From Candidatus Rifleibacteriota bacterium (GTDB taxonomy: Bacteria > Riflebacteria > Ozemobacteria > Ozemobacterales > Ozemobacteraceae): DNA of 19,873 nt. The notes under the pieces were generated by a model. It searched no databases and was not told where the DNA came from. It was given only the letters and a program-made list of their open reading frames with translations. The translations under genes were made by a program, and so were the position numbers. The stretch lies in assembly GCA_029560455.1 (NCBI GenBank), contig JAKQKW010000241.1:1-19873 (forward strand), in the 5' to 3' direction. Position 1 is the first letter of the stretch; each line of letters begins with the position of its first letter. Shown here piece after piece: positions 4,537 to 16,016 of the stretch.

Positions 4537-4571
4537 GAATAGCCCTGCCCGTTCAGGGCTATTCTGTTTTT
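4537..4571 (+). terminator. Intrinsic terminator of the PhnD-like gene
   Basis: GAATAGCCCTG (4537-4547) pairs perfectly with CAGGGCTATTC (4554-4564) around a 6-base loop and is followed by TGTTTTTT. It is oriented for plus-strand transcripts. Its right arm lies inside the last codons and stop of the convergent minus-strand gene ending at 4559. On the minus strand no T-run follows, so it acts in one direction only. Confidence 0.85.
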
Positions 4572-5533
4572 TCGGCCTGCAACAGCAGTAACCAGAATGA
4601 TACAAGCCCGATAAGCCCGGTAACTATATTACTGAAGAGTATTCCCGGCATGGTGGCAAAAACCATGGCAACTACCGGCCCAACCGGCCGCTGATATTTG
4701 CGGAATTTAAAAACCATGACAATAAAAAATATGAACAGAACAAAACATGCAAGTTCCTGTATGGCAAAAATTCCCCTGAACATACGCTGAGTCATTGTAG
4801 CCTGAACGCCAGGACTGAGGGCCACTGCCAGATAAACAGTCTGCAGACCGGCCCACAGAGTTGCCCCGGCTGTAACTCCGGCCCAGAAACTGCTTTTCCA
4901 GTCGCCGCTGCGCTTGAGAAAAAGGGCGGCACCAGCCATAGCGACCAACAATTGAAACACCAGAACCGGCACCTGGCCATACGCAATGGTAAAACCTGCA
5001 AATGCCCGTTGGATAAGATTCATTCTGCTCAGGTTATGGGGGTCAGGATTGAACCCGTCAATGGTTTTCTGCCAGAGCTTGTGATCTATGCCATGCTTCT
5101 GGCACTTATCAATAAAATAGGCCCGCACCGATTCTGCTGTTACCTTATCTTCATCGTCTTCGATAAAGCCGTGCTTCACACAATATATGTCATACATATG
5201 GCTGTTCTGGTGCGTGGCACCGTTTAAAACCCAGGGCACAAAAGCATACCTGCAGCCCGGCAAAAGAAGCTTGTGGTACTCAATATCCTTGATCAGTGCC
5301 TGCTCCATCAATGCCTCTAGCGGAATTTCGCCGGTCGATGGATCAGCGCGCATTTCCGGCGGCGGGAAACCGCTTCCAGCGTTTTTCAGTTTTTCCGCGT
5401 ATCTGGTCAGTTCCTCGAGAATTCCCTGACAGCGCTGATATTCGGTCTTTCCGCGCCTTGAAGCATCAGCTGCTACCGGCAGCAGAATCACCATACAACA
5501 CAATAAAGCTGTTAAAAATCTTACCCTGTTCAT
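4559..5533 (-). CDS. Unknown protein: signal peptide, extracytoplasmic domain, C-terminal membrane helices
   Basis: Protein of 324 residues that I do not recognise. Seen: a signal peptide (RFLTALLCCMVILLPVAADA), then about 160 extracytoplasmic residues with four cysteines (C35, C94, C118, C144) that could form two disulfides. The motif NGATHQNSHMYDIYC lies near residues 104-118. Four hydrophobic segments follow, near 186-206, 215-238, 255-277 and 285-318, and the protein ends with KTE. It is the last gene of the four-gene operon: its ATG overlaps the TGA of the ankyrin gene by four bases (ATGA). Tight coupling suggests it works with the ankyrin membrane protein, perhaps as a partner in one membrane complex. 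No catalytic motif is evident. The 3' end overlaps the terminator of the convergent PhnD-like gene. Confidence 0.75.
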   Translation of the reverse strand: MNRVRFLTALLCCMVILLPVAADASRRGKTEYQRCQGILEELTRYAEKLKNAGSGFPPPEMRADPSTGEIPLEALMEQALIKDIEYHKLLLPGCRYAFVPWVLNGATHQNSHMYDIYCVKHGFIEDDEDKVTAESVRAYFIDKCQKHGIDHKLWQKTIDGFNPDPHNLSRMNLIQRAFAGFTIAYGQVPVLVFQLLVAMAGAALFLKRSGDWKSSFWAGVTAGATLWAGLQTVYLAVALSPGVQATMTQRMFRGIFAIQELACFVLFIFFIVMVFKFRKYQRPVGPVVAMVFATMPGILFSNIVTGLIGLVSFWLLLLQAEKTE

Positions 5534-6978
5534 TTTTTACTCCCGTCGGTCTCTGTTTTTTCAACAGCAGAATTTTCAATGATCTTCAAAAGACGCAGAT
5601 AACGCATTTTTTCAGCAAAACTGCGCGGTGAATCGCCGGCTTTGTCTTTTATATCAGGATCGGCATGCCATCTGATCAGGGTCTCGACCAGCCCGGGTTC
5701 ATTGCGTTCGACTGCGTAATGCAGAGGCGTTTTTCCATCATTGTCAGGCTGGTTGATCACCTGCTCCACAAATTCTGAATAATTGTTATAGCGTGCCGAA
5801 CTGTCGCTGACAGAATTTCGTTCGACCATCAGATGCAGAAAAGTTTTGCCGTTTTTATCAACCGCCGTACACTCGACGCCGTTGGCCTGAAGAATTTTAA
5901 AAACTGCCGGATCACGGGCAAACAAAGACAGATAAAAGAGGTTTTCGCCGCTGTTTTCAGGAATTCGCGCGCCAAGACTGATCAACTCCTGTATCAACTC
6001 TGAAACCGGCTCATACCTGCTGAGCAGTGCCGCCGCAATTAAAGATTTTCCGTCTGCCTTAACCGGCTGATTCAGATCTGCACCGTAACTCGCAAGTAAA
6101 CGCGCATAGGCCAGCGACTCCTTTTTGTTGAAATGAAGCCATAGAGCCAGGCCGAGAGCCGTTTCATCAGGATTCTCAGACAGCCACAGGTTCGGATTGG
6201 CCCCGGCCCTGAGCAGCATTTCAGTAATCTGCAGGCTGCCATCGCCGCGGATTGCCCACCACAGTGGCCGGTAACCAGGTCTGACACCTTTTCCTCCGGC
6301 CGCTTTATTCAAATCTGGCTTCTGGGTCAGCAGCCATTCCACCAGCCCGGTCTGACGTTCGTCGATCGCCCGGCACAGAGCATTTTCAACCGGATTTGCC
6401 GGAATCTCCCGCTTTACGCCATCGAGCAGAGCGGTAAAACGGTCATTTCTGCCATTTTTAGCGGCTCTGATCAGCGCATCCATGTAACTGCCCGTCGTGA
6501 ATGGCAATGTGAGGGTGAGTATGACACCGATACAGATGGTCAAAAAAGCACTGCGGCCCGGCCATGGCACGGAGTTTTCAATCTTACCCGGTTTTGCCGC
6601 GATACGATTTGCCCAGTAAGAAAACCACAACCCGAAAAGCAGCCAGTATGGCCCCAGAAAGGGCAGATTCCAGACGTATTCTCTTACCATGCCCCTGACC
6701 AGAATGAGGCCAAAGAGCGAAAAAACCATGCCAAAAACCCAGAGAGTATAAGCCCATGGCAGCCATTCAACCTGTTCCTGTTTTGCCCTTGCAATATTCA
6801 GCAGGGCAACCGGAACCCAGAACAAAGCCAGCAGAACGCCGGTAAAACGAACCACGGATACAGCAATCTGAGAAAATTCCAGACAGGCGAATACTGCTAT
6901 TATAATGCCGACAACCCTTGCCTGATATGGAAAACGCCAGCTGCTCATCGATATAAACGCGTCTGAATGATCATTCAT
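5530..6978 (-). CDS. Five-helix membrane protein with C-terminal ankyrin repeats
   Basis: Protein of 482 residues. Hydrophobic helices lie near residues 22-36, 40-62, 74-95, 107-123 and 143-161. From about 165 to 470 there are ankyrin-type repeats of roughly 33 residues. The clearest repeat has DGKTPLHYAVERNEPGLVE (414-432) followed by WHADPDIKDKAGDSP; others contain RPLWWAIR, NGKTFLHLMVERN and LLRAGANPN. Ankyrin repeats bind proteins and are probably cytoplasmic here. The start at 6976-6978 overlaps the end of the TAXI gene by 8 bases and the stop overlaps the next gene by 4, so translational coupling is likely. I infer a scaffold or signalling adaptor in the inner membrane; the helical domain belongs to no family I recognise. 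The ankyrin call is firm, the role is not. Confidence 0.85.
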   Translation of the reverse strand: MNDHSDAFISMSSWRFPYQARVVGIIIAVFACLEFSQIAVSVVRFTGVLLALFWVPVALLNIARAKQEQVEWLPWAYTLWVFGMVFSLFGLILVRGMVREYVWNLPFLGPYWLLFGLWFSYWANRIAAKPGKIENSVPWPGRSAFLTICIGVILTLTLPFTTGSYMDALIRAAKNGRNDRFTALLDGVKREIPANPVENALCRAIDERQTGLVEWLLTQKPDLNKAAGGKGVRPGYRPLWWAIRGDGSLQITEMLLRAGANPNLWLSENPDETALGLALWLHFNKKESLAYARLLASYGADLNQPVKADGKSLIAAALLSRYEPVSELIQELISLGARIPENSGENLFYLSLFARDPAVFKILQANGVECTAVDKNGKTFLHLMVERNSVSDSSARYNNYSEFVEQVINQPDNDGKTPLHYAVERNEPGLVETLIRWHADPDIKDKAGDSPRSFAEKMRYLRLLKIIENSAVEKTETDGSKK

Positions 6979-7972
6979 TTTTCTTTTTACCTGCTTTCAA
7001 CCCTGATTCTCTTATAAAACGCGCGGTGCCTGCATGCAGATAACCTTCAGGAATGCCGTTCAACATCGTTTCAGGTTTGATATCATGCGCCCGCTCGTGT
7101 ATGGTCTTGAGATAGTCGAGTTCTGCGAACAGCGTGCTGACGAGGCGATTACCGAGTTCTTCAGAAAGTCTGGTAGTGGCAACAAGCATCGCCATCAAAG
7201 CAGGTGCTTTGACTTCATCCTTGACGCCACCGTAAGTAAGTGCCGGAATCTTAACACCTGAAAGATACGGCAAAGTCTCAGAAATGCTTGCCAGGTCAGT
7301 ATCTGAAAAATCCATGATGTGCACCGGCATGCGCCTGGTCAGCTCGTCAACCATTTTTGTCGGAATACCCGCAATGATGATCGCGGCATCACACTCACCA
7401 CGCTCCATGGCCTGAATCGACTCATCATAGCCCAGATAAAGCGGCTGATAGTGACCTTCTCTGACGCCAAGCGCCGAAAGCAGCTCAACCGACGTCATCG
7501 CATTACCGCTGCCGCGAGCCCCTACTACAATACGTTTGCCACGCAACTGGCTGACGTTTGTGATAGCGGCTGAGGCAGGAGTCAGCACCTGCACGACTTC
7601 AGGGTAGAGAGCCAGCAGCACCCGCAGACCGTTTACCGGCGAACCGGTAAACTGGCCGGTGCCGTTGATCGCGGCAAGAACCATGTCGCTCTGGGCAACC
7701 GCCAGATCGAGCTCGAGGTTCTGCAACAGATTGATGTTGTCGAGCGAACCGCGCGTCGAATGTGCCAGCACACTCAGTTTTTCTGACCGCGTTGTCCAGA
7801 CATTCGCAAAGGCGTTGCCAAGCGGGAAATAGGTGCCGGTCATCGAACCGGTGCCAAGGGCAAGAAAGTCGACGAGTCTGCTGACCTGCAAGGCGTCATT
7901 CTGGCCGGCGGCAGAAACGCAGATGCTGACCAGAAGTAAAAAGACTGCAATAATGCGGTTTCTGGCATTCAT
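6971..7972 (-). CDS. TAXI-family TRAP-type solute-binding protein
   Basis: Protein of 333 residues, typical for the family. Seen: a signal peptide (NRIIAVFLLLVSICVSAAGQ), then LALGTGSMTGTYFPLGNAF, the TAXI signature near the N-terminus. AVAQSDM, LRGKRIVVGARGSGN and CDAAIIIAGIPTKMV match the hinge and ligand-contact blocks of the fold. Members bind small carboxylates or amino acids such as glutamate in the periplasm and usually feed a TRAP permease. No DctQ/DctM genes are present here. I chose the ATG at 7970-7972 because it overlaps the stop of the diguanylate cyclase gene as ATGA and begins the signal peptide directly; a longer open frame to 8038 lies wholly inside that gene. The position directly after a Cache-type cyclase suggests it is a ligand-binding co-receptor rather than a transporter part. 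Confidence 0.87.
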   Translation of the reverse strand: MNARNRIIAVFLLLVSICVSAAGQNDALQVSRLVDFLALGTGSMTGTYFPLGNAFANVWTTRSEKLSVLAHSTRGSLDNINLLQNLELDLAVAQSDMVLAAINGTGQFTGSPVNGLRVLLALYPEVVQVLTPASAAITNVSQLRGKRIVVGARGSGNAMTSVELLSALGVREGHYQPLYLGYDESIQAMERGECDAAIIIAGIPTKMVDELTRRMPVHIMDFSDTDLASISETLPYLSGVKIPALTYGGVKDEVKAPALMAMLVATTRLSEELGNRLVSTLFAELDYLKTIHERAHDIKPETMLNGIPEGYLHAGTARFIRESGLKAGKKKNE

Positions 7973-10164
7973 TTTTCTGATACCACTCCCATCTGCTCTG
8001 AATAAATCGAAGACTGGTTGCGACCCCTCTTCTTGCACTCATAAAGGGCGGTGTCGGCCTTTCGGATCAGTTCGAGCGCTTCGGTCGAATGCAGCGGGTA
8101 TTCAGCCAGGCCAATGCTGATCGTAACTTTGAGTGGGCTGGTATGGCCGGTAAATTCATGTGCTTCAATCGCTTTTCGCAGGCGTTCGGCAACTACCATG
8201 CCGCCACTGGCATCAGTCTCCGGCAGCAGGGCAATCATTTCTTCGCCGCCATAGCGGGCCGCCATGTCGATATCTTCACGCAGATTGCCGCGAAATATCG
8301 TTGCAACCTGTTTGAGCACCTCATCGCCGATCTGATGACCGTAGGTATCGTTGAATTTCTTGAAATGGTCGATATCGAAGAACAAAATTGAAAAGATCTT
8401 GCCGTAACGACGAGCACGCTTGATTTCTTCGTTGAGACGGTTTCTGAAATGCCTTACCAGATTTAGCCCGGTCAGGCCATCGGTGATCGCCAGCTTGAAA
8501 AGCTTGGTGTTGTCGAGCACCAGAGCCGCCTGATTCGCCATTGTCTGCAGCAGATCGGTATCGGCGCGATTGAAGCCCTGACCATCCTTGCGATTGACAA
8601 TATTGATGACACCAAAGGTCACATTCTTAACCTTCAGCGGCACGCATACCAGCTGATTTACCCGGTTTTTCTCATTGTCATACTGTTTAAAATCCTGATG
8701 CGAATCCGGATCATTGATTATCGCCATTTCGCCGCTCTGCAGAACTTTTCCGGCAATGCCCTCACCGACTCTTATGTTGATATTGCGGGCAAAATTATGC
8801 ACAGCAACCGTCTGGCCGGCTTCGGCATCCCAGATGCGCACGCGCTGCAGCTCAAGAACTTCCTGGTTTTCATCGATCAGCATCAGTGAGCCGCGGGTGG
8901 CACAGGCAGCCTCGATAGCCTTGTCGATAATGACATCAAGCAGTTTTTCGAGATCGAGCCCGACTTCGACCATGGTGCGGCCAATTTTGTAAAGAACCCC
9001 GACTTCGAAAACCTTGCGATCAAGCTCGATATTTTTCTGTTCAATGGTATCTGCCCGCAGTTTCAGCTCTTCATAAGCAGCTTTCAGTTCACGCATCTTG
9101 TCTGCCAGACTGTCGGCCATGAAGTTAAAATTGTTCGCCAGCTGCCCGACCTCATCGGTGTTGTTAACGCTGATACGCACATCGTAACGCCCTGCAGCCA
9201 GTTCGTTCGTACCCCTCGTAACCTGCAGAATCGGCAGGGCAATGTTCTGAGAAATCATCAAAGCAATGATTACCGCCACAAGAATCGTAAAAAGAAGAAT
9301 CCAGTAGAGATTGCGCTGAAAAGCTTCGACCAGGGCATAGACTTCCTGCTGATCCTGCAGCAGCACCACCCGCCAGCCCAGACCAACCACCGGCAGCATC
9401 GAGGCAAGAACCGGCTTTTTCAGACTTTTTGCGCTGGCCGAAAAAACACCACTCGAAAAACTTCTTATCTGCTCGCCAAACAAACTCAAGTCTTCGGCAT
9501 TGGAAGACTCCGGCACCGAAACAACCGGGGTACCGCCAGCATCAACAAGAAAAGCCCGAGTGCTGTTGCCCACAAGGTTTTCGCTGATGATACTGGTCAC
9601 CAGAAAACGGTTCAGTTCAATCACCAGCAAACCATAAGAGTTGCTGCCACGGTCGTTGAGGCTCATGGCAAGCATTGGCCCGCTGCCGGCCTTAAAATCG
9701 AGCAGAACGTATTCACGACTTTTCGTTTCTGCCAGAATCCTTTCCGCATGGGGCAATTCAGTGAAAATAGTATCAACAGAGGCGCAGAGGCGCCTGCCCG
9801 CAGTATCATACACTCCGATCTTTTCTATGGCAAAGTATCGCCGGTCGTGCTCCTGCGCCAGCAACGTCAGTTTTTCAATATCCTGGTCAAGCGCCGGGTC
9901 ACTGTTTACAAGAAGCTGCGCGACTTCCTGCTGATGGCTGATGAACCGCCGCAGATCGATCGCTGTCTTGCGCGCGTGCGCAAGCGAGTTGCTGACGATT
10001 ACATTGAGCAGCCCATTTGAAGCATTCTGCAACATCACATAGCTGATATAAATCAGCGGCGTCAGTGTGATAATGAGAAAACTCACGACAAGCTTGGTTT
10101 TGATACTGTTGATATAGGCGTGTACCCTGTTTAAAAGTTTTTTTTCGCCATTCTGGTGCGGCAT
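7969..10164 (-). CDS. Membrane diguanylate cyclase (Cache-HAMP-GAF-GGDEF)
   Basis: Protein of 731 residues. In order: cytoplasmic start, membrane helix near 23-45, a periplasmic Cache-like sensor (46-283), second helix (285-305), HAMP (306-358), a coiled coil to about 390, GAF (405-555, with GSLMLID and CVPLKVKNVTFGVINIVNR), and a GGDEF domain (558-720, starting ITDGLTGLNLVRHF). FFDIDHFKKFND supplies metal ligands and RYGGEEM (637-643) is the active loop, so c-di-GMP synthesis from two GTP is expected. Phe of GGEEF is replaced by Met. The inhibitory-site position expected as RxxD reads EDID, with the Arg one residue early, so product inhibition may be weak. The ATG at 10162-10164 follows AGGA at a 10-base distance. 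It is the first gene of a four-gene overlapping operon and probably the signalling output of that module. Confidence 0.93.
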   Translation of the reverse strand: MPHQNGEKKLLNRVHAYINSIKTKLVVSFLIITLTPLIYISYVMLQNASNGLLNVIVSNSLAHARKTAIDLRRFISHQQEVAQLLVNSDPALDQDIEKLTLLAQEHDRRYFAIEKIGVYDTAGRRLCASVDTIFTELPHAERILAETKSREYVLLDFKAGSGPMLAMSLNDRGSNSYGLLVIELNRFLVTSIISENLVGNSTRAFLVDAGGTPVVSVPESSNAEDLSLFGEQIRSFSSGVFSASAKSLKKPVLASMLPVVGLGWRVVLLQDQQEVYALVEAFQRNLYWILLFTILVAVIIALMISQNIALPILQVTRGTNELAAGRYDVRISVNNTDEVGQLANNFNFMADSLADKMRELKAAYEELKLRADTIEQKNIELDRKVFEVGVLYKIGRTMVEVGLDLEKLLDVIIDKAIEAACATRGSLMLIDENQEVLELQRVRIWDAEAGQTVAVHNFARNINIRVGEGIAGKVLQSGEMAIINDPDSHQDFKQYDNEKNRVNQLVCVPLKVKNVTFGVINIVNRKDGQGFNRADTDLLQTMANQAALVLDNTKLFKLAITDGLTGLNLVRHFRNRLNEEIKRARRYGKIFSILFFDIDHFKKFNDTYGHQIGDEVLKQVATIFRGNLREDIDMAARYGGEEMIALLPETDASGGMVVAERLRKAIEAHEFTGHTSPLKVTISIGLAEYPLHSTEALELIRKADTALYECKKRGRNQSSIYSEQMGVVSEK

Positions 10165-10916: not shown

Positions 10917-10944
10917 TTTACATTTAAGTCGATTGTTGTAACAT
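10917..10944 (+). promoter_or_regulatory. Candidate promoter of the 1264-residue/zinc-ribbon gene pair
   Basis: TTTACA (10917-10922, five of six to the -35 consensus) is followed after 16 bases by TAACAT (10939-10944, four of six to the -10). Transcription would begin near 10951. A ribosome site AAGGA (10967-10971) lies 9 bases before the ATG at 10981. The rest of the 10715-10980 gap shows no other feature I can support. Confidence 0.4.
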
Positions 10945-10980: not shown

Positions 10981-13900
10981 ATGTTTAACCTTTTAAAAGT
11001 CCTGCAGAGAGCAATTCTATATCTCATCATCATTATACTGCCAGCCCCGGCATTGTTTTCACAGAGTATTTCAGGTGCCAGATTCGATTATAATTTTCCA
11101 TACGCGGCAGACAGTCAGGAACGCGAAGCTCTGCAACGGGCATACGATCGTCTCAGCATAAAAAACCCCGATCTTACCGGTCTTAACGACGAAACCATAA
11201 AAAAGAGCGGCGAAGAAGGCGTGGCGAAGGTTTTCAAACAGCTTGAAAATGCAAAAAAACAATTTGAAACCGTAACCGATGAACGCGAAAAAATCTTTGC
11301 CCGCCAGGTGCTGAACAATTACACCCAGCTTTTTCGGGCATACCGGATTCTGGTTCCAACCGGCAACAATAGATCAGATGTCAAGCCCGGAACCGGAGCA
11401 ACCAATAATGACAGCACAGGTTCTTATGACAATAGCCGAACCCCATTCAGTTTCAGGCTGGTTCGCGCCGAACTCACCCCAGATGGGCCGTTGATAGAAG
11501 TCGAAGTGAATGTCGAAACAATTGAATTCTATGCCAGTATCAACAATTCGAAGCTCGGGCAGTTTGCCGAGCAGCGCTGGACAATCGGCAGCATCATAAT
11601 GCAGTTCATGGCAAACGGTGAAGAAATCAGGCCGTTCGGCAACCCCGAAAAACCGGCCAACGGCCGGGATCAGCTGAAACAGGATTATAAAAACCTTGGT
11701 GATTTTAAATTTACAGCTGGCAACCTGACTAACAGCTTCATGCTCGATCACGGCCGTGAATATGCCGCCCGGGTGAATTTTACGTGGCCGCTCGACCCGA
11801 AAACCGAAATGACGGCAAAAATAATCAAAGAAAGCTGGATATGGCGACCAAAAGCACAGAAAAATTTCTCGAATGAGTATCAGATAACCATTTTCAACGC
11901 ACTCAATCAGATCATCCACCAGGAAAAAATTACGATCAAAACCGGTTCTGACTTCGCCGGAGCCCAGATTGAACACAAATCACTGATAGACAGTTCGTCA
12001 CTTATCTGGGGCCTTGGCACCGCAATTCTGGGTCTGGGCCTTCTTGGCATGTTCAAACTTGGCCGCACCGGAACCCCGGATGCCGGCACCACCCCACCGT
12101 TGGTAAATGGCAACGACCATTCTCAGACCGAAAATGATGACGAACAGCAGGCAGACCAGGCCCGCATAATTTTCGACAACTCAGGTCGCAGCCTGGTTCT
12201 GGTGACCGGGTCAGGTCAGCCGGCCGACTTTTCGGCACGGGTCGTCGATTCACAAATCAGCGGCTGGCAGCTGCAGGCCCAGCTGCTCAGCGGTGAGCAG
12301 TGCCTCACAATCGAACAGAAGTCTGCCACTGCGGTTGATTCAGCCTCTTACATTCTAAAAGAAACCTCACCAGCCCTGCAGCAGGGTGAGCAGACGCGTG
12401 AATTCGCTCTGCACGTGGTCGCCCGCCACGAAACAAAAACCATCAGCAAAACCCTTGATATCGTCATTGGCCGCGAAGGCCTGTTCGTTCTCTCGCCCCG
12501 GCCGCTAATAATCGTCGCTGACGCTGAATCAGCAACCGAACTGAAAGTTACGGCAATCGAGTTCTATGACGGCCTGCTCGCCACTGACCACGATGCACTT
12601 ATCAACCTGAAGCTCACATTCGATGCCGATGACGACCTTTCGCGCAAAGCCTTCGAAACCAGCGAAGTCGATTTCAGAGCCGAATCAGAATGGGAAAATG
12701 TACGCGCCGCCATCGATGCTTATGAGCGTTCTAACACCTTCGCCGCTCTCGTTCTGCATGCAAAAACCGCCCGCGCCCTGCCCTCGAAAAAGAACGATGC
12801 CGGCACCGACAATGTTTTTTCTGGTCGTCTAAAGCTCACCACCAGCAGTCGCAAACAAAACTACGAATTGGTTCTGCCGGTCGAACTGCATGCCCCGGCT
12901 GAGCCAGCCAGAAGTGAGCGTCTGGCGACCGAACTCGAAAACTGCCGATTGATTATCGAACGCTATGTTCCTGATGAAGGCGGCCACAAAGAGAAATTTC
13001 GCGATATGCTCGACCGCTTCGGGCCAACTCTTGGGCCCGAGGGCCTTTACAAGCTGCGCCACGACATCTGGAAAATTTCCCAGAAGCTCTGGGAAGCAAA
13101 GGGCCTTCAGGGCTATGTTGAAATGGCCGAGCGCATCGAAACCTACGATAAGCTGCGCAACTGGGCAGAGTGGAGCGGCGACATTGCCCTTTCCATACTG
13201 CTTTACTGTAAATCCGGCGGCGGCATTGGCGGCACTCTCAAGCAGACAGCGGTCACTCTGCTGAAGCAGATACTGGTTTCGGCGATCAATCATTACAAAG
13301 ATACGGTCGAACTCAAAGGCCGTTTTACCAACGAAGATTACGAGACCTGGGTCGATGTGCAACTGCGCAACCAGCTGTTCTCGACGCCTGACTACATGTT
13401 GACGGCAGCATCGCTCAGCGGCATGATCAGCTCCGGCCGGGCAATGGTGCTGATGTTCGCCAGTATTTTTCTGAAGTCTCTTGTTTCTAACGTCGACTGG
13501 AAAAAGCTCGGCGCCAACTGGGATGAAAAGGGGCTGGATATCGAAGCCTGCAACGACATAGGCAAAGCCGCCTGGGCAGCATCTCAGGAATGCTTCAAGG
13601 CGGTCGGCACCATGGCGATAACCCAGTGGCTGACCGGTGTAACCGTCAGATCAGCGATTAAAAACAAGGTGCCGCTGCACGATGATGTCATGCGTGAATA
13701 TGCCAAATTCAGGCTGATTGAAGAAGAGATTCCGCTCAAAAAGACCGCAAATACTGACACACCCGACACCTCGCCAGAAGTGCTCAATCAGCGGGCAAAA
13801 GAAATATTGGACAGCAATGATATTCCGATCAAAACAGGCTCTGTCTACGACCAGAACAATACAACGCCTGTGGTTAACGAAATGGTCGCCAACATCAGAA

Positions 13901-14775
13901 ATGGTCGGGCCAGAAGCGAAGACGTGGTCAGGTGTCTTGCCGACAACAAAACGCAGGCAATGCGCACCATAAAGAACCTGCCTGAAAATGTGCAGAACGC
14001 CTTCATGAAGACTCTGCGTGAAGATTTCTACAACCCGCATGATACCTCATTGATCAAACATCTTGAGGCTCAGACCAATGTTCCGTGGGCTGCCAAAACT
14101 ATTGATGGTAAAACCGTCAAACCCGAAATCAGAATTTTTGAGACAAGCACCCCCGGGAAAAAGACCGCCTTCAGCCAGGACCGCGACTTCTGCCCGAAGT
14201 ATTTCGACCAGAAATCTCAACAGTGGCTCGAAATCACTCCGGTAAAAAAGTGGAAAGAAGCCTCTGACAAATGGTGGAAAAACAAAACCGGCTTCGATGC
14301 CGAAAACCTGCAGCAGGCAGCCATGACGCGTCTTGGCGATGAAGCCTGCCCCGATTATGCGACCCAGCAATGGAACGCCTCGACCAACCGGTTCGACGTC
14401 ATAGAGCCAAATATAGTCAAAGTTTATGCCGGTGAAGGTCGTCTTAAGAGCCCGGTTGAACTGGCAGCCATGTATAAAAACAAAATAGACGGCCCTCTGA
14501 AGCATGGCAACCAGGCTGAAAGTATCGCCCAGCTGAAAAAAGGCATTCAGGTTTACGACAAAGTCCTGAAAAGTTATAAAAAACAGGGGTTCAGAGTTAA
14601 TCAGCCGACCGATGAATTCAGACTCGGCATGGAAATCCTCAGCTGGGCGCCCGACGACTACCAGGCAAATCCTGAAGTAATAGTCAGGCTCAATAAAATT
14701 CTCGCCGAAAGCACCGGCATAAGCAGTTTCCAGGAATTTGGCCGGGAACTGGTAATAAAAATGGGGCAATTCTGA
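10981..14775 (+). CDS. Very large exported/membrane protein of unknown family (1264 residues)
   Basis: Not recognised. Seen: a signal peptide or anchor (residues 5-28, AILYLIIIILPAPALFSQ); a charged helical stretch (45-122); a polar linker (125-155); a beta-rich region (156-330); a clear membrane helix (339-359, LIWGLGTAILGLGLLGMF); an acidic Gln-rich linker (375-392); a second beta-rich, possibly Ig-like region (395-640); a helical part (650-900) with hydrophobic stretches near 733-745 and 805-836; and a lysine- and tryptophan-rich C-terminal part (930-1264). In the last part CPKYFDQKSQQWLEITP (from C1071) and CPDYATQQWNASTNRFDVIEP (from C1123; ending at P1143) look like a loose repeat. The basic residues after the 339-359 helix suggest that the later part is cytoplasmic, if residues 30-338 are exported. 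It is translationally coupled to the next gene by TGATG. Size and architecture suggest a secretion, surface or toxin-like role, but no domain proves it. Confidence 0.8.
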   Translation: MFNLLKVLQRAILYLIIIILPAPALFSQSISGARFDYNFPYAADSQEREALQRAYDRLSIKNPDLTGLNDETIKKSGEEGVAKVFKQLENAKKQFETVTDEREKIFARQVLNNYTQLFRAYRILVPTGNNRSDVKPGTGATNNDSTGSYDNSRTPFSFRLVRAELTPDGPLIEVEVNVETIEFYASINNSKLGQFAEQRWTIGSIIMQFMANGEEIRPFGNPEKPANGRDQLKQDYKNLGDFKFTAGNLTNSFMLDHGREYAARVNFTWPLDPKTEMTAKIIKESWIWRPKAQKNFSNEYQITIFNALNQIIHQEKITIKTGSDFAGAQIEHKSLIDSSSLIWGLGTAILGLGLLGMFKLGRTGTPDAGTTPPLVNGNDHSQTENDDEQQADQARIIFDNSGRSLVLVTGSGQPADFSARVVDSQISGWQLQAQLLSGEQCLTIEQKSATAVDSASYILKETSPALQQGEQTREFALHVVARHETKTISKTLDIVIGREGLFVLSPRPLIIVADAESATELKVTAIEFYDGLLATDHDALINLKLTFDADDDLSRKAFETSEVDFRAESEWENVRAAIDAYERSNTFAALVLHAKTARALPSKKNDAGTDNVFSGRLKLTTSSRKQNYELVLPVELHAPAEPARSERLATELENCRLIIERYVPDEGGHKEKFRDMLDRFGPTLGPEGLYKLRHDIWKISQKLWEAKGLQGYVEMAERIETYDKLRNWAEWSGDIALSILLYCKSGGGIGGTLKQTAVTLLKQILVSAINHYKDTVELKGRFTNEDYETWVDVQLRNQLFSTPDYMLTAASLSGMISSGRAMVLMFASIFLKSLVSNVDWKKLGANWDEKGLDIEACNDIGKAAWAASQECFKAVGTMAITQWLTGVTVRSAIKNKVPLHDDVMREYAKFRLIEEEIPLKKTANTDTPDTSPEVLNQRAKEILDSNDIPIKTGSVYDQNNTTPVVNEMVANIRNGRARSEDVVRCLADNKTQAMRTIKNLPENVQNAFMKTLREDFYNPHDTSLIKHLEAQTNVPWAAKTIDGKTVKPEIRIFETSTPGKKTAFSQDRDFCPKYFDQKSQQWLEITPVKKWKEASDKWWKNKTGFDAENLQQAAMTRLGDEACPDYATQQWNASTNRFDVIEPNIVKVYAGEGRLKSPVELAAMYKNKIDGPLKHGNQAESIAQLKKGIQVYDKVLKSYKKQGFRVNQPTDEFRLGMEILSWAPDDYQANPEVIVRLNKILAESTGISSFQEFGRELVIKMGQF

Positions 14776-16016
14776 TGAACGACAATATCAATAGCCTGTC
14801 AAACCCTCAAAACCCTGAGCCATGCGTAATCGTTGAATTCGTCGACCGTGATTTCGACGATTCTGCATATCGTCATCCCGAACTCCTTGGCGGCGAAATG
14901 CAGCAACTCAGGGGCGTTCAATCACCAGAAGGCCTGCGACCGGTCTCAATAGAGGGACAGCCAGACCGCGACCGGTTTTCGCCTGATAAGCCACAAACCT
15001 GGCGCCTGGCCTCTACTTCACCTGATCAGTATTTTAATGGTCTGCGCAGCTGTCTGGCCGATGACGACCCGCTGGCTTTTCCTGAAGTGCAGATCAGATC
15101 TACAACTCTACAGTTACCTTCTGGTCACGCCCTGCCCGGCCAAATATCGGGCACTCTGCCGAAACTGCCGCAAAAATCGGGGGGCGTTGCCGACCTGGCT
15201 TTCGCTGCCGCAGAAATTGCAGGAGTTGCAGCAAAAGACATCACAGTGAAAATTGCTGACCGAACTCACCATGCAGCTGATAAAAACAAATCGGGCACAA
15301 AACATTCTGAGAAGCAGCAGCCTGCAAAAGAAGATTCAGACAATACTGCAGCCAGCTCATCAACAATTGCTACAACAGATATGACTGCAGGTATCCACTC
15401 TGCCGGCACTGAATTGCTCAAAACGGTTCTTGGCTTTCGTTCCGGCTTTTCACCGACTCCCGAGCAGCAGTTTTACCGGGTTTTTCCCGCCGGCTTCAAC
15501 TGCTGCAGCTGTCAGCAGTCTCTTACCGAAATGGGCGAGACCTGCATAAAATGTGCAAAACCTTCGGGTCTGGCATTTGACACGGTCAAACAGGTCACTA
15601 TCGGCAATCAGCCAGCTCCCTGGCTCGATGCCGCCCTTGCATACACCAGACTGAAGTTCAACTTGTTATGGGTTCTTCTCTTCGCTTTGCCGGCATATCT
15701 GTTACACCAGAACCTGGTCAGCCCTGCCAGCCTGGTGATACCCTTTCTTGCCGGGGCAGTCACCCTGTTTTTCTGGCGTCTTATCGCAATCTTTTTCAGG
15801 CGCAGGTCTGCCATAAAATCCAGACGGGCCGAATACCTGCAGCAACACCCTGAAACCCTTAAAGAAATACGCGACTGCATCATGCAGGGAAAATATGATG
15901 CGCGTATGACCCCGGCAGAACTTGAGCTGGTGGCTGGCATGAACATATTTTCAGATATAAAAAATCGAACTCTGATCTTCTTCATCGGCGACAGGCGTCA
16001 ACGAACGAAAAAATAG
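14775..16016 (+). CDS. Zinc-ribbon membrane protein of unknown family, partner of the 1264-residue protein
   Basis: Protein of 413 residues, not recognised. Seen: a polar N-terminal half with Pro-, Ser- and Lys-rich low-complexity stretches (about 105-205); a zinc-ribbon-like block with C243xxC246 and C257xxC260 (NCCSCQQSLTEMGETCIKC); two membrane helices near 295-313 and 317-341; then a very basic patch (FFRRRSAIKSRR) and a charged tail ending TKK. The basic patch predicts that both termini and the zinc ribbon are in the cytoplasm. Its ATG shares the A of the preceding TGA, so translation probably restarts from the upstream gene at equal levels. It may anchor or regulate the large protein; immunity or chaperone roles are possible but unsupported. 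No terminator is visible in the gap to the kinase gene. Confidence 0.78.
   Translation: MNDNINSLSNPQNPEPCVIVEFVDRDFDDSAYRHPELLGGEMQQLRGVQSPEGLRPVSIEGQPDRDRFSPDKPQTWRLASTSPDQYFNGLRSCLADDDPLAFPEVQIRSTTLQLPSGHALPGQISGTLPKLPQKSGGVADLAFAAAEIAGVAAKDITVKIADRTHHAADKNKSGTKHSEKQQPAKEDSDNTAASSSTIATTDMTAGIHSAGTELLKTVLGFRSGFSPTPEQQFYRVFPAGFNCCSCQQSLTEMGETCIKCAKPSGLAFDTVKQVTIGNQPAPWLDAALAYTRLKFNLLWVLLFALPAYLLHQNLVSPASLVIPFLAGAVTLFFWRLIAIFFRRRSAIKSRRAEYLQQHPETLKEIRDCIMQGKYDARMTPAELELVAGMNIFSDIKNRTLIFFIGDRRQRTKK

Follow-up and report, generated by a model that had tools for sequence, protein, structure and literature searches.

A conserved two-gene membrane module of Candidatus Rifleibacteriota with a candidate C-terminal effector and a candidate regulator

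In polymorphic toxin systems a large first gene encodes a conserved body with differing C-termini and overlaps a downstream partner gene (PMC3482391). VARTIG modules of Thermococcales, the organisation of which has been likened to polymorphic toxins, start with the gene of a long immunoglobulin (Ig)-domain protein, often with a signal peptide, followed by genes for membrane proteins (PMC8416519). The TANFOR toxins of Bacteroidetes are lineage-specific large proteins accompanied by a downstream immunity gene (PMC7073777), and ADP-ribosyl cyclase (ARC, CD38-fold) domains, as in ARCtox (PMC12605009) and Tac1, are known to act as toxins by depleting NAD(P) (PMC12356396). We describe a gene pair on a contig of a Candidatus Rifleibacteriota bacterium (GenBank JAKQKW010000241.1); the whole stretch of DNA analysed, 19,873 nucleotides, is called the window. 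The pair resembles the first three kinds of system in the respects given and is linked to the last by a relative of its first protein. Gene 1 (product P0001) encodes a very large protein, here called the giant, and gene 2 (product P0002) its partner; the evidence supports a conserved two-gene membrane module of no recognised family (Table 1).

We tentatively favour, with a probability of about 0.37, a conflict module that pairs a membrane effector, bearing an exchangeable cytoplasmic C-terminus, with a partner that restrains it. In such a module, the gene 1 product would hold a variable exported head outside the cytoplasmic membrane; its two Ig-like domains, conserved helical block and exchangeable C-terminal effector would follow the membrane helix within the cytoplasm. 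The gene 2 product would lie in the same membrane, with cytoplasmic parts, and keep the effector inactive as its cognate regulator or immunity protein. A trigger acting at the head would free the effector, and the nucleotide or cofactor pool of the cell would be damaged or reprogrammed.

The evidence that carries this reading comes from a relative in another genome of the same phylum (P0016 in genome G027, locus L009). This protein of 1081 amino acids has its own signal peptide, head and membrane helix, followed by the same Ig/helical core in the same order. The cores of P0016 and P0001 align by hhalign with a probability of 99 (E = 4.7e-18, residues 426–892, 23% identity over 403 columns), and the core is also found in G027 by profile search of the genome (E = 4.1e-20) and by tblastn (E = 1.8e-15). 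A profile of the C-terminal domain of the window protein finds no match in G027. At that end, residues 1006–1063 of P0016 match part of PF02267, the ARC domain (positions 128–188 of 241; 27.6 bits against a curated cut-off of 25), residues 966–1064 align with structure 9ouf (deposited as 'Ribonuclease', E = 4.8e-7) and residues 966–1059 with structure 9ro8 ('ADP-ribosylcyclase toxin', E = 2.1e-6); CD38 itself matches the P0016 C-terminus only at E = 0.17–0.98. The catalytic residues of ARCtox are W273, E299, W323 and E356, with spacings of 26, 24 and 33 (PMC12605009). Counted by hand, the W/E/W/E residues of 9ro8 in the alignment are spaced identically, and W969, E995, W1012 and E1045 of P0016 align with them, so that all four catalytic positions are kept. 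This domain would be predicted to destroy NAD. PF02267 occurs in one of the 39 genomes of the phylum, G027, and Pfam finds no match to it in P0001. Since P0016 combines this core with an ARC domain, the core occurs with at least two C-terminal domains that differ, and one of these is a known toxin fold. Different effectors on a conserved body are a feature of polymorphic toxins; as only two kinds of C-terminus are seen, the support that they lend is weak. The C-terminal part behaves as a separable effector, a conclusion that we regard as supported.

The setting of P0016 differs from that of the window protein. Three genes overlap by ATGA junctions in L009:6258–10767: the giant, a HEAT-repeat protein whose C-terminal part holds a CxxC/CxxC ribbon, and a 192-residue protein that, by eye, is likely to be a membrane protein. 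Ribbon and membrane parts thus recur in G027 in separate genes, and their similarity to gene 2 is not above chance. The HEAT/ribbon gene cannot be traced further, since its HEAT repeats match all 39 genomes. On a plasmid record of Subdoligranulum variabile (OY725847.1, L018:5826–8195), the C-terminal stretch of an unannotated 789-residue frame matches the G027 ARC domain (32.8% identity, E = 3e-4).

Queried with the gene 1 product, a set of about 5.8 billion proteins yields eight entries including the query itself; each of the seven relatives has an E value no higher than 7.5e-173. Five of them are 1156–1264 residues long and 45–84% identical over 92–100% of the query; P0008 is a partial record, and P0009, encoded on a 4.7-Mb contig, is the most distant of the seven (39% identity over 63% of the query). 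P0009 as query returns four entries including itself and adds P0015. The named relatives all come from metagenome-assembled genomes (MAGs): P0004 (labelled Erysipelotrichia bacterium, contig L001) and P0008 and P0015 (Candidatus Riflebacteria). The MAG of L001 (SABV01000019.1) falls into the same phylum as a MAG of Candidatus Riflebacteria, and its Erysipelotrichia label is probably wrong. Compared with the window protein, the head is 70, 56, 49, 34 and 17% identical in P0003, P0004, P0005, P0007 and P0009, respectively (34–70% across the six relatives other than P0009); the corresponding values are 95, 73, 69, 55 and 40% for the helical block and 93, 72, 69, 61 and 45% for the C-terminal domain. 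The C-terminus is cut short in P0006 (68% identity over 221 residues) and missing from P0008. Alignment A5 omits P0008 and P0015, and alignment A6 omits P0003, P0006 and P0008. These region-wise identities show a variable head and a conserved remainder after the membrane helix. The preliminary description of the locus, made by a model from the sequence, had raised the idea of a variable C-terminus on an otherwise conserved protein. This is borne out by the ARC domain that stands there in G027 and fails within the close family, where the C-terminus is kept and the head varies most, opposite to the usual polymorphic-toxin pattern.

The topology of the giant is consistent with an effector that faces inward. 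The signal peptide and membrane helix noticed earlier have counterparts in all 10 family proteins examined, namely a signal-peptide-like N-terminus and a further hydrophobic segment near residue 340 (271–289 in P0009, about 240–268 in P0016). P0008 has one additional borderline stretch (301–319). In all ten, the net charge after the main helix exceeds that before it, most strongly in P0009 (−4 before, +9 after); the values for P0015 are +1 and +2. Given an N-in signal and the positive-after charge at the main helix, residues 29–338 would lie outside and the remainder in the cytoplasm, so that hydropathy and charge predict an effector side pointing inward. The AlphaFold model of residues 395–1264 has a mean predicted local distance difference test (pLDDT) value of 70. 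Behind the helix it places Ig-like sandwiches at residues 395–640, in line with the beta-rich region that had been proposed there, and the top rows of Foldseek and VIA are mostly beta-sandwich proteins (pilins, cadherins and Ig domains). The long helical part is likewise reproduced in the model, at about residues 640–945 with confidence often under 60, and is followed by a separate alpha/beta C-terminus.

Several points weigh against a module with an inward, exchangeable effector. A second hydrophobic stretch in the helical block (about 821–844, Kyte–Doolittle (KD) hydropathy 1.51–1.62) is found in 4 of the 10 proteins (P0003–P0006; absent from P0001); were it to cross the membrane, the C-terminal domain would come to lie outside, and this borderline stretch lowers the odds that we give to an inward effector. 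The main helix is itself Gly-rich and moderately hydrophobic (KD 1.5–2.0). The C-termini fall into just two kinds, one of them in a protein as distant as that of G027. The C-terminal profile finds, in the 39 genomes (completeness not stated), only the giant of genome G001 and a remnant in G016, with no standalone C-terminal cassettes; a G005 match (E = 0.033) was judged to be chance. ARC domains are described as joined exclusively to domains for secretion targeting or surface anchoring (PMC12605009), a point in favour of delivery. Finally, a common neighbourhood of TldD/TldE-like genes (named by eye) near the locus in L001, L002 and L008 looks like vertical inheritance and not toxin exchange.

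The alternative that survives these data best is a contact-dependent or secreted polymorphic toxin, a possible reading that we place slightly behind an inward effector. Its C-terminus would be delivered to neighbours, the Gly-rich segment would serve in translocation or anchoring and gene 2 would encode the immunity protein of the producer. The association of ARC domains with secretion and anchoring modules speaks for delivery, as do the ARC C-terminus on the same core in G027, the effector-then-partner order of overlapping genes, the Ig-like domains that precede the effector and the borderline stretch in four relatives, which could place the C-terminus outside. Locus L008 of genome G016 fits both this reading and the favoured one: what is left of the decayed giant there is a pair of fragments that lie in different frames (residues 1098–1147 and 1165–1264; L008:7376–7791) beside an open, uninterrupted partner frame of 250 residues without the CxxC/CxxC ribbon, as expected if a partner can outlive its effector. 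Delivery is opposed by the signal peptide with a stop-transfer-like helix and a positive C-terminal side in 10 of 10 proteins, by the constancy of the C-terminus among close relatives and by the lack of standalone cassettes in the 39 genomes. Neither Pfam nor NCBIfam gives a match to a known trafficking domain (LXG/WXG, PAAR, RHS, TPS, MuF and PrsW) for P0001, its relatives, P0009 or P0016. Secretion or surface display of the C-terminus, as first suggested for this locus, is not supported so far, since the charge around the main helix puts it in the cytoplasm, with the stretch in 4 of 10 proteins as a caveat.

An ordinary envelope or housekeeping complex of Riflebacteria (a scaffold, or one for assembly or quality control), with the ARC domain of G027 as an incidental fusion to a common core, appears unlikely. 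The well-conserved C-terminus and the chromosomal neighbourhood that is alike in three genomes would suit it, and so would the similarity to LapB, for which the C-terminal profile gives E = 1.4e-4 over residues 1060–1177 and the whole profile E = 0.01. LapB-like proteins combine TPR repeats with a rubredoxin-type metal site. The match stems from a profile of five rows, however, and the AlphaFold2 (AF2) model has strands where the matched segment of LapB is helical TPR; we have not adopted it. Also at odds with housekeeping are the retention of all four ARC catalytic positions in G027 and a patchy distribution. The giant profile matches in 4 of the 39 genomes (G001, G002, G016 with its remnant, and G027) and the partner profile in two, G001 and G016, both times adjoining the giant or its remnant. 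The two genes are therefore adjacent in both genomes with a partner match, one of which holds a mere remnant of the giant. L001 (G001) has the pair together with an identical TGATG junction, and in L002 (G002) the contig ends inside the giant. The phylum of the 39 genomes, which is that of G001, is probably Riflebacteria, because it includes G002, the genome of the Riflebacteria-titled L002.

The C-terminal domain of the window protein may be an enzyme. Modelled alone, residues 955–1264 reach a pLDDT of 78.5 and a predicted template modelling score (pTM) of 0.61, and no confident fold match was found for this model. The stretch ETS...FSQDRD is a weak candidate for a nucleotidyltransferase site; the alignment in which its residues were compared (A7) omits P0003, which is close to P0001, and P0006, P0008 and P0015, whose C-termini are incomplete. 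That the domain joins a nucleotidyltransferase to a HEPN-like bundle (MNT-HEPN-like) and modifies nucleotides, RNA or proteins is improbable, and would be compatible with any of the readings above. A link to AbiEii (E = 6) was ruled out by hhalign. The CPxY repeat reported earlier does not stand as a functional repeat: it has only two matches (1071 and 1123), P0009 has VPKY and FSGY in their place, and the second copy reads CSDY in P0005 and APDY in P0007.

Gene 2 has five entries among the same 5.8 billion proteins (44–99% identical). The zinc ribbon and two membrane helices described for it are both recovered, cysteines 243, 246, 257 and 260 being invariant in the five aligned partners (alignment A2, which leaves out the 99% identical P0010). 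The tail after the hairpin has a net charge of +5, the loop is uncharged and the N-terminal flank is about neutral. From its position, the gene overlap and its survival in G016 we infer that the partner acts as an immunity protein or regulator. The stop codon of gene 1 (TGA, 14773–14775) and the start codon of gene 2 (ATG, 14775–14777) overlap by one base, and gene 2 is probably translationally coupled to gene 1. Both open reading frames (ORFs) are exact in position and length, and the relatives of both proteins show that the genes are real. The single candidate promoter carries no weight, as the site at 10917–10944 (9/12 match) is one of eight promoter-like sites in the region, compared with 4.2 ± 2.0 in shuffles.

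Table 1. Features of the gene pair, in window coordinates
Feature	Position	Strand	Evidence
Gene 1 (P0001), 1264-residue membrane protein with C-terminal candidate effector domain	10981..14775	+	Exact ORF and relatives
Signal peptide, residues 1–28	10981..11064	+	Basic N-terminus and hydrophobic segment 12–30 (KD 2.05); cleavage site judged by eye
Exported N-terminal region (head), residues 29–338	11065..11994	+	Most variable large part; 17% identity in P0009
Membrane helix, residues 340–358	11998..12054	+	C-terminal side more positive; charge asymmetry in 10/10 family proteins
Two Ig-like beta sandwiches, residues 395–640	12163..12900	+	AlphaFold, Foldseek, VIA
Conserved helical block, residues 641–900, common to G027	12901..13680	+	40–95% identity across 7 relatives; hhalign with P0016; low-confidence model
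C-terminal candidate effector domain, residues 961–1264	13861..14772	+	45–93% identity; AF2 model
Candidate active-site stretch ETS...FSQDRD, residues 1054–1069	14140..14187	+	Glu and FSQDRD invariant in 5/5 C-termini of alignment A7
TGATG stop-start junction of genes 1 and 2	14773..14777	+	Same junction in L001; ATGA junctions in G027
Gene 2 (P0002), 413-residue partner with ribbon and membrane hairpin, candidate immunity protein or regulator	14775..16016	+	Exact ORF and relatives
CxxC...CxxC zinc-ribbon-like motif, residues 243–260	15501..15554	+	C243, C246, C257 and C260 invariant in 5 aligned partners
Membrane hairpin of partner, residues about 293–339, then basic tail	15651..15791	+	Hydropathy and charge

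Among the eight neighbours scanned with Pfam, a NUDIX gene and a histidine kinase gene adjoin the pair in the window. On the minus strand at 4559–8038, genes with overlapping ends encode an NMT1-type binding protein, an ankyrin-repeat protein and a 324-residue protein without a Pfam match above cut-off. In L001, 73 bases upstream of the giant and on the same strand (6997–9927), lies a gene that matches models of type IV methyl-directed restriction enzymes, helicase-like (E = 8.3e-86). Two similar proteins of about 230 residues, each with a hydrophobic segment by eye, are encoded directly upstream of the giant in L002 (5330–6732) and were not seen upstream in the window or L001. In G007 (L025:2–2893), a large protein cut by the contig edge has an N-terminal part that is acidic and rich in repeats, and several segments look hydrophobic by eye; it may be a distant relative and another large membrane protein of this type, although its similarity to the family (E = 0.034 over 46 residues) is not significant.

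The earlier remark that no family was recognised in either protein agrees with Pfam, NCBIfam, PHROGs and PADLOC, which name neither. P0001 and P0002 have nothing above cut-off in Pfam or NCBIfam and no match to the anti-phage models of PADLOC at E ≤ 0.1; the sole PHROG match, of gene 1, is to a family of unknown function (E = 0.067). Matches set aside were SLATT NF033631 (E = 0.0031, residues 12–125 of P0006 only, far under cut-off), DUF5339 (4 of 8 members, best E = 0.015, below cut-off), SR-25, LapA_dom, DUF5995, PrdC, ExoVII and cobA (below cut-off, one member each), PADLOC PDC-M09A on P0009 (E = 0.02) and on an upstream protein of L002 (E = 0.0022), and phage tape-measure matches at E = 3–5, which are chance. 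Genome matches in G015 (E = 0.016), G027:C187 (E = 0.13) and G005 (E = 0.033–0.092) were also judged to be chance. No relative of P0001 occurs in 50,697 phage records (E limit 0.01), and 72,556 plasmid records hold none of P0009 (0.01), of whole P0016 (0.001) or of the window C-terminal region (0.01); the ARC stretch of P0016 alone matches in three plasmid records. In viral contigs, 46, 74 and 112 stretches fitted the patterns and none was confirmed. Large membrane proteins with comparable helical blocks and C-terminal domains presumably form a broader set in Bacillota and Chloroflexota.

A wider family of bacterial transmembrane proteins resembling immune receptors, in which variable exported heads, a membrane helix and the Ig/helical core would carry exchangeable intracellular effectors, such as the NAD-destroying ARC domain of one species and an undescribed enzyme domain here, restrained by partners of membrane or HEAT/ribbon type and fired by surface signals, is rather doubtful. 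The data tie an unannotated gene pair of an uncultured bacterial group, via a shared core, to a fold with proven NAD-depleting toxicity, and the predicted arrangement, with the effector inside and the variable head outside, is unusual. If our reading is right, the module would be a new carrier for conflict effectors and would provide a candidate regulator and a new candidate effector domain in which the SQDRD motif is invariant; if the effector is delivered instead, it would be a carrier without a known trafficking domain.

In the accessible parts of the literature on the architecture and the organism group we found no published description of this arrangement, and the main text of PMC12605009 does not contain the name Riflebacteria. 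TANFOR toxins are defined by a constant N-terminal domain (PMC7073777), whereas the N-terminal head is the variable part here. The hypervariable part of VARTIG proteins is the C-terminal Ig domain, and no toxin domain was identified in them (PMC8416519); here the Ig domains are internal and, in G027, an enzyme domain follows them. ARCtox (PMC12605009) and Tac1 (PMC12356396) are matched by the relative in G027, with the same core as the window protein and a C-terminal ARC domain that keeps the four catalytic positions. The window protein itself has no ARC domain, both it and the G027 protein have a signal peptide and membrane helix and no matched LXG, PAAR, RHS or TPS domain, and the downstream genes of the two loci are not similar above chance. 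Compared with polymorphic toxin systems (PMC3482391), close relatives here keep the C-terminus and the head varies instead, no cassettes were found in the 39 genomes, an inward topology is predicted and no known delivery domain is matched. We rate the window pair as a membrane-tethered variant of polymorphic-toxin-like modules.

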